64,000 nt of DNA. Source: Bifidobacterium olomucense (GTDB taxonomy: Bacteria > Actinomycetota > Actinomycetes > Actinomycetales > Bifidobacteriaceae). Position numbers and translations under genes: made by a program. Below the pieces are notes generated by a model. The model was not told the origin of the DNA. It did no database searches and was given only the letters and a program-made list of their open reading frames with translations. Where the stretch lies: positions 1 through 64,000 of the forward strand of contig NZ_JAAIIG010000004.1 in assembly GCF_012932375.1 (NCBI RefSeq), given 5' to 3'. Positions within the stretch are counted from its first letter, which is position 1. The number at the start of each line of letters is the position of its first letter. Shown piece by piece: positions 26,638 to 31,250 of this stretch.

Positions 26638-26925
26638 ATGGCTGAAGCCAAACCTTCCGACATCCTCGACCTGCGTCCCAAGCAGGGCAGCATCCTGTAC
26701 GAGATGCTCCGCCTGGGCCTCGTGTTCGACCATTCGGACGACGGGACCGCGCAGACGTGGTGCGATTACGAGAAGAACCTGCGCGCCGACTTCCAGAGCA
26801 TCGACGCCGGCAAGGTCACGTTCACGGACATGGACACGCGGCTCGCGTCGGACGTGGACGTGGCGGACCTGCCGGCCGTCGCGGAGATCGTCACGTGGAA
26901 AAGCTCGCAGTCGGAGACCGTGTGA
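26638..26925 (+). CDS. Phage hypothetical protein
   Basis: 95 residues, acidic, unrecognised. It lies between fibre and lysis genes, with AAAAGGAG 7 bases before the ATG, and its stop overlaps the next start (TGATG). The pattern SDILDLRPKQGSILYEMLRLG followed by an acidic half (DMDTRLASDVDVADLP) suggests a small soluble helical protein. Small genes here are often lysis accessory or fibre-related, but nothing shows which. Confidence 0.75.
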   Translation: MAEAKPSDILDLRPKQGSILYEMLRLGLVFDHSDDGTAQTWCDYEKNLRADFQSIDAGKVTFTDMDTRLASDVDVADLPAVAEIVTWKSSQSETV

Positions 26926-27371
26926 TGCCGCCCTTCCAGCAGTTGTTCGCAAGCAGCGAGTTCTGGAGCACGCTCATCCTCGCGCTCGTGTCGGGCGGCG
27001 GATTGGGCGGCGTCGTCACCCTGATCGCCACGCGCAACCGCACGCGCGCGGAGACCGAGCACGAGTCGGCCGAGGCGGACAAGCTCGCCACCGAGGCCGC
27101 GCATCAGGCCGTCACCATCCTCACCGACAGCGTCATCCGCCCCCTGCGCGAGCAGGTGGACCTGCAAGAGGCGCAGATCGACCATTTGGAGAAGCAGCAG
27201 GAACGCTACTTCGTGGCCACGGGCTACATCCGCAGCCTGTGCCATTGGCTCGACCCGGCCGTGCGCGCCATGGAACCCGACTACATGGCGCAACATCCCA
27301 AACCGGCGTTGCCGGACGTATTGCGCGAGCAGATCGCGCCCGAGACCATCAAGGGAAAGGAGACCCCATGA
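26925..27371 (+). CDS. Phage membrane protein with coiled coil
   Basis: 148 residues. One clear transmembrane helix (about residues 11-34, FWSTLILALVSGGGLGGVVTLIA) is followed by a basic stop-transfer segment (TRNRTRAE) and a long helix rich in Glu, Ala and Gln to about residue 90. The shape recalls single-span lysis accessory or spanin-like/DUF2746-type proteins of actinophages. It overlaps the upstream gene by one base and the endolysin by four (ATGA), so it is expressed with the lysis module. Confidence 0.7.
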   Translation: MPPFQQLFASSEFWSTLILALVSGGGLGGVVTLIATRNRTRAETEHESAEADKLATEAAHQAVTILTDSVIRPLREQVDLQEAQIDHLEKQQERYFVATGYIRSLCHWLDPAVRAMEPDYMAQHPKPALPDVLREQIAPETIKGKETP

Positions 27372-28285
27372 CCGGTTCCACGCTCGCCACGTGGGCGGGC
27401 AGTCCGAACCATTACAACGGCCGCAACGGGTACGCGGTGGACCACATCACCCTGCACATCATGGTCGGCACGCTCGAATCCTGTAGGAACTGGTTCGCGC
27501 TTCCACAGGCGCGGGCCGCATCCCATTACGGCGTCGGCCCGGACCGCGTCTACCAGTTCGTGGACGAGGACAACGGGAGCTGGGCGGACGCGAACATGGC
27601 TTCCGACTGTTCGGGCGTCACCATCGAGCACGAGGGCGGCATGGCGGGCGTGCCCGTCACCGACGGCGAGGTGGAGCTCTCCGCCCGCCTGTGCGCGGAC
27701 ATCGCCCGCCGCTACGGGTGGAAACGCCTGTGGCACGACCCGACCGGCAGCCTGAAGGGCAACGTGTATTTGCACCGGGAGATTCCCGGCACCGACCACA
27801 TGCAATGCCCCGACCTCGCGGTCAACGGACTGCCCGTGGACCGCATCATCAACCGAGCAAACCAGTTATTGGGAAATGAAGGAGACGACGACATGGTAAC
27901 TGCACAGGACATCAACAAGATCGCCGAGGCGGTGTGGAACTTCAACCAGAACGGCACGAAATGCCGCGACCGGTTGCAGGGCATCGACAAGGCCGCGAAC
28001 GACATCGTCAAGACCGTGGGCGAACGCGTGTGGAGCTTCCCCATCCAGTCCGTACAGGCGCGTGACCGCCTCTACGGGCTGGACAAGCTGCAAGTGCCCG
28101 CGTTGAGCAAGCAGGTCGCCCAGTTGACCGCCACGGTCACGGCCCAGCAGACCGCCATCGACACGCTCGCCAAATCCCTCGGCGCGAACCCGGCCGATAT
28201 CAGCGAGGCGGTCGAGAAGGCCGTGAAGGCCAAGCTCGACTCCTTGCAGATCACCGTCACCACCGACGACAAGGAGGCCGAATGA
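27368..28285 (+). CDS. Endolysin, N-acetylmuramoyl-L-alanine amidase
   Basis: 305 residues. The Amidase_2 domain covers about residues 15-165 and cleaves the amide bond between muramic acid and the stem peptide. Zinc ligands visible are His30 (ITLHIMVG), His136 (YLHREIPG) and Cys147 (QCPDL). Residues 176-305 hold two copies of a motif (AVWNF...CRDRLQGIDKA and RVWSF...ARDRLYGLDKL) and a C-terminal helix, probably for wall binding or multimerisation. An in-frame ATG at codon 176 (27893) has a perfect AAGGAG 8 bases upstream. No signal peptide, so export depends on the holin. Confidence 0.9.
   Translation: MTGSTLATWAGSPNHYNGRNGYAVDHITLHIMVGTLESCRNWFALPQARAASHYGVGPDRVYQFVDEDNGSWADANMASDCSGVTIEHEGGMAGVPVTDGEVELSARLCADIARRYGWKRLWHDPTGSLKGNVYLHREIPGTDHMQCPDLAVNGLPVDRIINRANQLLGNEGDDDMVTAQDINKIAEAVWNFNQNGTKCRDRLQGIDKAANDIVKTVGERVWSFPIQSVQARDRLYGLDKLQVPALSKQVAQLTATVTAQQTAIDTLAKSLGANPADISEAVEKAVKAKLDSLQITVTTDDKEAE
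27893..28285 (+). CDS. Internal-start C-terminal endolysin product (candidate)
   Basis: A second translation start within the endolysin gene would give a separate 130-residue C-terminal domain. AAGGAG at 27879-27884 and ATG at 27893 have ideal spacing, better than at many true starts here. Internal starts producing a binding-domain partner are known in several phage endolysins. Here the evidence is only the start signal and its place exactly at the domain boundary. Confidence 0.6.
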   Translation: MVTAQDINKIAEAVWNFNQNGTKCRDRLQGIDKAANDIVKTVGERVWSFPIQSVQARDRLYGLDKLQVPALSKQVAQLTATVTAQQTAIDTLAKSLGANPADISEAVEKAVKAKLDSLQITVTTDDKEAE

Positions 28286-28560
28286 TGGCATACGACAATG
28301 ACACCGAGGAGCATGTGGAGGAGTCCGACCTGAACCATGACAACGTGCCCGACTGGCTCATCCCGAGCCGCGTGTACGACGTCCTGAAATGGGTGGCGTT
28401 GATCGTGTTCCCGGCCTTGGCCACGTTGGTGGGCGCGTTGGGCCCCGTATGGGGATTCACCGGCCTCGCCTCGGCAATCGCGACCACGCTCAACGCGTTG
28501 GGACTGTTCACCGGCGTCATCATCGGCGCTTCCGCGATCAAAGCCAACGCGGGCAAGTGA
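28282..28560 (+). CDS. Holin
   Basis: 92 residues with an acidic, soluble N-terminus (about 30 residues), then VLKWVALIVFPALATLVGAL and a second span NALGLFTGVIIGASAI, the layout of Dp-1-like holins that form the membrane lesion releasing endolysin. AAGGAGG precedes two adjacent ATG codons (28282 and 28285). The second has the better spacing. It overlaps the endolysin stop and is the last gene of the late operon. Confidence 0.85.
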   Translation: MMAYDNDTEEHVEESDLNHDNVPDWLIPSRVYDVLKWVALIVFPALATLVGALGPVWGFTGLASAIATTLNALGLFTGVIIGASAIKANAGK

Positions 28561-29520: not shown

Positions 29521-30417
29521 TCAGCGCCCGTCATCATAGGGGTTCCCTCCTTTCCCGCATCTTTGCAACGATTCCGTTACGGCGATGCTGGCCGTGTTCT
29601 CCACAGCGAGCCTGTTCATGTCGTACCGGTCAAGCATCTCGCGCGTGCTCCAACCGCCCGACGCCATGATCTCCCGGTCCGGCACCCGCTGCCGGCGCGC
29701 CGTCGTGGCGAACGTACGACGCAGGGAATGCGGCGTGATGCGCCGCTCGACCCCGCATCGTTCGCCAAGGCCCGCGACCTCTGCGACGAGTTTCGGATAC
29801 GTCACGCGTCTGCCCCGGCAGACCAGCAGCGAGCCTTTCCTGCGCTCTCCCTTGGCCCGTTCCACCGATCTGGCGACGCGTTCGCTCAGACCCACCTCCT
29901 GCATCCAGTCGAATTTACGGTTGACATGCACCACGGGCATGCCGCCGACACGATGGTAGTCGGCGGCATCAAGCCCCAGCACCTCGCTCGCGCGCAATCC
30001 GTTGAGCAGGAGCAGGCAGCACGCGGCCGCGACGAACGGTCTGCGGTCCCCCTCGGCGAGTTCGAGGAACAAGGCGGCCTGTTCGACGGACAGCCATGAG
30101 CCGTCGCTCCACCTGCGCACGGCCGGGCGCTTCACATGCTCGGCGGGGTTCCGTTCGATGTATCGTTCCTGCCACAGGTATTCGTAGAAGCAGCAGATCG
30201 GCGACAGTTCGGTGGCGATGGTGTTCCGGCTGGCACCCATGCGTTCGCGCCATATCCTGTAGGAGTCGATGTGGAACCGGCGCGCATGCATCACGTCGAT
30301 GCCGTTGTCCCCGCAGAACCCGAGCCACGCATCCAGCACCCTGCGGTAGAACGCTCGGCTTTTCGACGGCACGCTCGCCAGATACTCACCCATCAGACGG
30401 CTCACAGTCTGCGCCAT
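29521..30417 (-). CDS. int: Tyrosine-family integrase
   Basis: 298 residues. An N-terminal SAM-like core-binding domain (MGEYLASVPSKSRAFYRRVL, about 1-90) is followed by the catalytic domain with Arg in LRASEVLGLD, HSLRRTF (His-x-x-Arg), GGWSTREM, and the nucleophilic Tyr in DRYDMN near the C-terminus. The start at 30417 gives the usual domain layout. A longer frame upstream overlaps another gene. Its first 16 bases overlap the upstream gene's end, so translation is coupled. It may integrate this prophage or a separate element next to it. Confidence 0.9.
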   Translation of the reverse strand: MAQTVSRLMGEYLASVPSKSRAFYRRVLDAWLGFCGDNGIDVMHARRFHIDSYRIWRERMGASRNTIATELSPICCFYEYLWQERYIERNPAEHVKRPAVRRWSDGSWLSVEQAALFLELAEGDRRPFVAAACCLLLLNGLRASEVLGLDAADYHRVGGMPVVHVNRKFDWMQEVGLSERVARSVERAKGERRKGSLLVCRGRRVTYPKLVAEVAGLGERCGVERRITPHSLRRTFATTARRQRVPDREIMASGGWSTREMLDRYDMNRLAVENTASIAVTESLQRCGKGGNPYDDGR

Positions 30418-31250
30418 ATTCTCACCGATTCCTTCACGATCAGGGGTGTTCCCGCAGGCCCCTTGACGTATGGGGGTATCCATTGGCGGCGGCGCAGCGA
30501 ATTGTTCGGCCCGTACTGCTGGTTGCGGTAGAAGCCGCGCACAATATACCGGTGGTCGGGCGCGCGTCGCCCCGCCCCTCCCCCGTTTCCCATGGATGTT
30601 CTGGCCGGTGGACGCAGCACGATCATCTTGACCTTGGCTGCCTGCGTCATCGACCGTGGCTGCGGGCCGTCCCTTCGCAGGTCCCATCGGCTTTCGGAGA
30701 CGGCCGTCACGCTCGGCTGGCCCATCAGCGCGAACGCGACCGAAAGAAGCGTTATCACCGACGCGTCAAGGGTCTCGTCATCGATGGTTCCCATCGGCGC
30801 TATCGGCAGGCTTTTGTCCATGAGCCTTCCCATGGCGTTTCTCATGGAATCACCGAACAGGCGAATCATGACACCCGGAACACCTCCATGCATGGAACCC
30901 GCCCGCTCCCAGCTCACCGCCGCGACCGGCACGTCTGCCATCCCCCGCGAAGAGAACACGACACCGCCCTCGAACACGATAAGGCCCGTGGCGGTGGGCA
31001 ACGGTTCCACGGGAGGCAACGGCCCGTTCTCCACCGTGTCCACGCATAGTTTCTTCATGTCCTCGCTCACCCACCACAGGGGCGCACGAGCCAGGGCGTC
31101 CATCTCATCGAAGAACTCCCTTGCCAGCCGTTCGCTCACCGTGCCCCGCTCCCCGGCCATCACAGCCTGCTTCCGGCCTTCCACGACCAGATGGTCACGG
31201 ATGACCGGAAGCCATGACGGGGTGAGCCGCAGTCTCCTACTCCTGCCCAT
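30402..31250 (-). CDS. Actinobacterial mobile-element protein of unknown function
   Basis: 282 residues. The C-terminal 50 residues (RYIVRGFYRNQQYG, RQWIPPYVKGPAGTPL) match a pattern I associate with a widespread but uncharacterised family in actinobacterial genomes, plasmids and prophages, usually ending in a WxxPYxKGPxGxPL-like motif. The N-terminal half has WWVSEDMKKLC and a hydrophobic strand region (GLIVFEGGVVFS). The start at 31250 overlaps the upstream gene by 14 bases and its end overlaps the integrase, so the three genes form one coupled operon. Confidence 0.72.
   Translation of the reverse strand: MGRSRRLRLTPSWLPVIRDHLVVEGRKQAVMAGERGTVSERLAREFFDEMDALARAPLWWVSEDMKKLCVDTVENGPLPPVEPLPTATGLIVFEGGVVFSSRGMADVPVAAVSWERAGSMHGGVPGVMIRLFGDSMRNAMGRLMDKSLPIAPMGTIDDETLDASVITLLSVAFALMGQPSVTAVSESRWDLRRDGPQPRSMTQAAKVKMIVLRPPARTSMGNGGGAGRRAPDHRYIVRGFYRNQQYGPNNSLRRRQWIPPYVKGPAGTPLIVKESVRIWRRL

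Follow-up and report, generated by a model that had tools for sequence, protein, structure and literature searches.

The window, a stretch of 64,000 nucleotides from Bifidobacterium olomucense, is a Bifidobacterium prophage (contig G000:C33) that harbors a compact lysis cassette on its forward strand. The cassette encompasses, in order, an open reading frame of unassigned function that resembles PHROG 1397 (26925-27371), the endolysin gene (27368-28285) and a holin of the Dp-1 family (PF16938, E 3.2e-17; 28282-28560), with overlaps of a few bases between the genes. The lysin ATG shares bases with the stop codon of the upstream frame in the sequence ATGA at 27368-27371, and the start of the holin gene overlaps the stop of the lysin gene. 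Directly beyond the cassette, on the reverse strand, is a tyrosine-recombinase-like (integrase-like) open reading frame (29521-30687), so that an end of the prophage is probably near. Two more Dp-1-type holin loci are found near contig ends elsewhere in the host genome (L075 and L090, on contigs C4 and C7 of G000), which suggests further prophages.

The full-length lysin is a protein of 305 residues with a calculated mass of 33.2 kDa, and its start is preceded by an 8-nucleotide Shine-Dalgarno (SD) sequence, GAAAGGAG, at 27355-27362 with a spacing of 5; this and all other features of the lysin gene given below are on the forward strand. Residues 22-148 (27431-27811) form an Amidase_2 domain (PF01510), which is matched with an E value of 2.2e-15 and a score of 57.6 bits, above the curated cut-off of 26. 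The gene combines a recognizable catalytic domain with a place in a lysis cassette, adjacent to a Dp-1-type holin. The profile of PHROG 19265 covers the whole protein (residues 1-302, E 1.7e-70); this family is listed as having an unknown function, and two products are not mentioned there.

Within the lysin gene lies a second candidate start. The hexamer AAGGAG (27879-27884), embedded in the codons AAT GAA GGA GAC and conserved in relatives, is separated by 8 bases from an ATG (27893-27895; Met176 of 305) that is in frame with the ATG at 27368 and would begin a shorter product. This ATG is assigned to the domain boundary because the Amidase_2 domain ends at residue 148 and the AlphaFold model of the lysin has a low-confidence linker at residues 171-181; the start and its ribosome-binding site are outside the conserved domains, between the catalytic and C-terminal parts. 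The original prediction had described a perfect AAGGAG with 8-base spacing before an in-frame ATG at this boundary, and its site, frame and position all hold, but the word perfect was slightly generous, as the match covers 6 nucleotides of a longer anti-SD complement and the lysin's own SD covers 8. The anti-SD tail itself (GGATCACCTCCTTTCT), at the 3' end of the 16S rRNA, was located in the host's own genome. Among all in-frame ATG, GTG and TTG codons of the gene, the anti-SD duplex at the internal ATG (-9.7 kcal/mol) is second only to that of the true start (-13.5), and its local mRNA structure is the weakest (-9.0). No other internal start in the lysin gene is as strong as the ATG at 27893.

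Such a site could in principle be a product of chance, or the unused relic of an old gene fusion. In a sample of 150 host open reading frames of at least 200 residues, drawn from the window and 180 kb of its contig, an SD match of at least 6 nucleotides precedes 12 of 1008 internal in-frame ATGs, and these occur in 10 of the 150 frames (about 7%). A single site is therefore only suggestive on its own, and the observation is counted as real because the site is conserved in relatives. The codon bias described below, conservation across genera and retention after changes in the linker together make chance or an idle relic most improbable.

Initiation at 27893 would yield a C-terminal product of 130 residues and 14.1 kDa (27893-28285), and the computed masses of the two products agree with the 33 and 14 kDa that had been forecast. 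The C-terminal part carries the duplicated motif W-F...RDRL(Q/Y)G(I/L)DK, noticed at the outset, in two copies that are both present in the protein (WNFNQNGTKCRDRLQGIDK and WSFPIQSVQARDRLYGLDK). These define repeat 1 (AEAVWNFNQNGTKCRDRLQGID; 27923-27988) and repeat 2 (ERVWSFPIQSVQARDRLYGLD; 28022-28084), each of which adopts a helix-hairpin-helix arrangement in an AlphaFold model of moderate confidence (pLDDT 75, pTM 0.34). The repeats are followed by a helix of 26 residues (model residues 69-94; 28097-28174) with a heptad pattern, and then by a conserved tail (GANPADISEAVEKAVKAKLDSLQITVT; 28181-28261) that contains the last helix of the model (residues 100-117). When 21 relatives were compared, the repeats were found to be variable or replaced, and the last 55 residues conserved. 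Hydrophobic residues occupy the a and d positions of the helix at a frequency of 0.77, against a mean of 0.46 and a maximum of 0.66 in 2000 column permutations, and the helix of the window protein and its closest relative has an insertion of exactly 7 residues, that is one heptad, with respect to most relatives. The heptad pattern and the one-heptad indel are what a coiled coil would show, and the helix is a probable coiled coil.

No family could be assigned to this C-terminal part. A Pfam search returned no match above cut-off, a PDB profile search with the C-terminal alignment found no match, and Foldseek comparison of the model with PDB and BFVD gave nothing with an E value below 0.001. The part is accordingly outside the known families of cell-wall binding domains covered by these Pfam, PDB profile and fold searches, as had been supposed from the motif.

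Relatives of the lysin were collected by searches of Bifidobacterium genomes, IMG/VR and phage records. They include 39 distinct lysins, of which nearly all are from Bifidobacterium and each has either this or another short C-terminal part behind an Amidase_2, CHAP, NlpC/P60 or GH25 catalytic domain; the labels for catalytic and C-terminal types were given by visual inspection, and those of 20 proteins were checked with Pfam. The C-terminal part has near relatives in B. scaligerum, among others. Each of the 39 lysins has a start codon at the equivalent position, which is ATG in 37 and GTG in two. It follows an SD match of 5 or more nucleotides in 35 of the 39 and of 6 or more in 24, at spacings of 4-12; the other four (L017, L029, L034 and L108) have a match of only 4 nucleotides. 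The form of the SD varies between AAGGAG, AGGAGG, GGAGG and GAAAGGAG. In the lysins of phages BD811P1, P2 and P3 the linkers differ (QEGDDM, QGDDDM and RGGDDM, respectively) and the SD is kept (AAGGAG, AAGGAG and AGGAGG), and in L003 and L004 an SD and the ATG are both retained despite an indel between their linkers.

A number of individual cases deserve mention. The BD811P1-P3 lysins (L054, L055 and L056) belong to Bifidobacterium phages of 17.7 kb and are annotated merely as hypothetical proteins. Another short C-terminal type, with the pattern IIQxNDExxLxYxDG...HPDEV, is likewise found with its relatives behind an internal start, which takes the form AGGAGG-8-ATG in several cases; its carriers are the C-termini of L017, L024, L028 and L128, together with L037, L043 and L083, and the NlpC-type L128 matches the Pfam family ELLD (PF25309). 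L016 is a lysin of bifidobacterial type on a contig binned as a 'Bacteroidales bacterium' MAG, and this contig is probably mis-binned. L133, from another genus of Bifidobacteriaceae, was considered as a natural two-gene split form and rejected, as its C-terminal part is out of frame with the catalytic part; it looks like a decayed NlpC-type lysin gene, in which the junction GGAGGAGAAACAATG is still present. L137 was also rejected, being an unrelated open frame with a match limited to the helix part.

The synonymous sites of these genes give a measure of selection on the nucleotide sequence of the junction. Of the 47 glycine codons that fall within seven codons upstream of the junction, 45 are GGA, a codon used for 15% of glycines in the rest of these genes (Fisher p 4e-32), and when the lysins are grouped by combination of catalytic domain and C-terminal type, junction glycine is mostly GGA in all 17 combinations that have one (p about 1e-14). 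Synonymous shuffling of 20 representatives gave SD matches of at least 5 nucleotides in a mean of 6.2 and a maximum of 14 genes over 4000 trials, as compared with 16 observed; with all 39 lysins the mean was 11.6 and the maximum 21, as compared with 35 observed. A Fisher combination of the per-gene synonymous p-values across 20 combinations reaches only 0.003, which is modest because each gene on its own is weak, and the pooled counts form the better test. As a comparison within the genus, 10 distinct LysM-type lysins are without any ATG that follows an SD of 5 or more nucleotides between the catalytic domain and LysM, and two of the 10 have weak GTG or TTG candidates at the domain boundary. 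Codon choice and the conservation of the start codon across swapped catalytic domains provide comparative evidence that the internal start is under selection.

The search of actinophage lysins that had been advised in the original prediction led to a similar junction in lysins of Streptomyces phages and prophages. The C-terminal profile also reached L138, a GH25-like lysin whose junction reads AAGGAG-9-ATG and which comes from a Streptomyces-like genome; L138 led in turn to the Streptomyces phages OnionKnight and Dagobah, and to some 20 more lysins of phages or prophages. With the junction placed automatically by a protein motif in 25 lysins of this type, 24 have an ATG or GTG behind an SD of 5 or more nucleotides; in the single miss, L148, the junction had been misplaced, and the true junction reads GGAGG-8-ATG. 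In L151 the junction expression failed, and the reading frame seems to be disrupted. Where the junction residue is valine it is encoded by GTG in 10 of 10 cases, as compared with 30% of valines in these genes. Alignment by hhalign of the lysin C-terminal domain with those of the Streptomyces type, which have the pattern DVWAYKG..DAYAYLRG, gave a probability of 77% and an E value of 2e-5 over 48 columns that include the coiled coil. Both types have the layout VW-hairpin-(RDRL/DAYAYL)-G as well as the junction start, and homology between the Bifidobacterium and Streptomyces types is tentatively suggested. Gordonia phage matches to the Streptomyces-type domain (E 0.6) were dismissed as chance, since the other strand carries annotated genes at these places.

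Modules are exchanged exactly at the junction, with four or more unrelated catalytic domains on one side and several C-terminal types on the other. The junction might for this reason be thought of as a boundary element at the DNA level, one that favors recombination of the modules and at which initiation is incidental. The DNA sequence is not fixed, however: the form of the SD, the spacing, from 4 to 11 bases, and the choice of ATG or GTG all vary, and what persists are the requirements of the ribosome; this explanation is very unlikely. Alternatively, an SD-like sequence in a linker that follows a folded domain could serve to slow ribosomes between the domains in order to assist folding, in the absence of any initiation. 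A start codon is needless for pausing, yet ATG or GTG is found at the right spacing and the valine codon is never another one (10 of 10 GTG), which leaves the pausing explanation with hardly any likelihood. Read from sequence comparison, the site, its position, the selection on its SD and start codon, and the swapping of modules with the site retained are the secure elements, and it is very probable that the internal start is translated. The claim of a two-product lysin is in this way strongly supported by the conserved junction starts and SDs in 39 lysins with non-homologous catalytic domains, the codon bias within the SD, and the LysM lysins of the genus, which have no ATG behind an SD at that place.

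Two-product endolysins are an established kind. Of 3,780 endolysins surveyed by Pinto et al., roughly half are predicted to have internal starts, mainly on the basis of predicted initiation rates (PMC9430671), and the main text of that survey makes no mention of Bifidobacterium or Streptomyces. The enterococcal lysins Lys170 (phage F170/08) and LysIME-EF1 have one catalytic and one C-terminal domain with an internal ribosome-binding site and start between them, as here, and assemble as 1 full-length and 3 C-terminal chains (PMC7098653, PMC9430671). Their binding domains tetramerize as a compact ring, in contrast to the heptad helix of the present domain, which has no Pfam family, and the catalytic domain of LysIME-EF1 is a CHAP rather than an Amidase_2. 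In the clostridial lysins CTP1L, CD27L and CS74L an internal start gives rise to a separate binding domain, which forms a complex with the full-length enzyme; these lysins showed no homology to the present C-terminal part in the PDB profile search, and their stoichiometry and domain are not transferable. LysP7951, from a phage of S. thermophilus, is a single gene for two polypeptides whose activity, according to the survey, is seen only with a 1:5 complex (PMC9430671), although both the host and the C-terminal domain differ from those considered here. LysA of mycobacteriophages Ms6 and Pollywog, also of an actinobacterial host, is there credited with a second product that begins at an internal in-frame start (PMC9430671); this product consists of a second catalytic domain and a binding domain, whereas no catalytic domain is recognized in the short product here.

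By analogy with Lys170, LysIME-EF1, CTP1L and LysP7951, in which free binding domains join the full enzyme, the same may be proposed for the present domain. Ribosomes starting at 27368 would produce the amidase with its C-terminal domain, and independent initiation at 27893, directed by an SD inside the linker codons, would produce the C-terminal domain alone. The variable N-terminal portion of this domain, here the two W-hairpin-RDRL repeats, is taken as the putative wall-binding part, and the constant heptad helix and tail as the putative oligomerization part. Free domains would then probably join the full-length chain by means of the coiled coil, so that one or a few catalytic domains are carried by several binding domains, with a gain in avidity or a control of activity as the possible outcome. 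That this gene specifies a two-product endolysin of an amidase chain and free C-terminal domains that assemble by a coiled coil is, on balance, probable, and binding of the wall by the C-terminal domain is about as likely. A hetero-oligomer of the free domain and the full-length chain, taken by itself, is favored somewhat less strongly, and here it is the heptad pattern that would argue for it. The part of the domain that is most strongly conserved is the heptad helix and tail, with its one-heptad indel, and it is this that suggests co-assembly with the full enzyme.

The main rival is that two products are made without assembly, the free domain acting alone, for instance in that it takes up wall sites on debris and neighboring cells, limits the diffusion of the enzyme or times lysis. 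All of the evidence for the start site fits this equally well, and there are precedents: LysJavan488 is reported as two non-interacting products (PMC9430671), and the binding domain of CD16/50L is credited with limiting diffusion and thereby sparing neighboring hosts (PMC9045149). However, conservation in the domain is strongest in the heptad helix and tail, where the indel measures exactly one heptad, which suggests oligomerization, and the reported complexes occur in lysins with one catalytic domain and a start before the binding domain, as here (PMC9430671). Action of the free domain without assembly is thus rather unlikely, and an assembling two-product lysin is preferred.

Three things are new here: the C-terminal family itself, the fact that it moves between catalytic domains together with its own start, and the evidence of selection from codon usage. 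It is an even question whether, in phages of Actinobacteria (at least those of Bifidobacterium and Streptomyces), ribosome-binding site, start codon, targeting repeat and coiled coil form one travelling 'gene within a gene' cassette behind amidase, CHAP, NlpC/P60 and GH25 domains, giving obligate two-product assemblies by a coiled-coil mode of oligomerization that we did not find described for endolysins. Comparative evidence for selection on an internal start adds to a survey based mainly on predicted initiation rates (PMC9430671), and in a survey of bifidoprophages the endolysins are described as single proteins (PMC8705816). Endolysins of bifidophages are candidates for selective assays and tools, and if the second chain is needed, constructs that are codon-optimized, or tagged at the N-terminus only, could lose or hide it.

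Bifidobacterium appears with two lysin strategies in one genus, the internal-start type and a second class that combines GH25 with LysM. Members of the latter (L067, L068, L070, L076-L078, L080, L084 and L092) adjoin Dp-1 holins and are without the internal start, and most of them have an N-terminal stretch that resembles a signal peptide.
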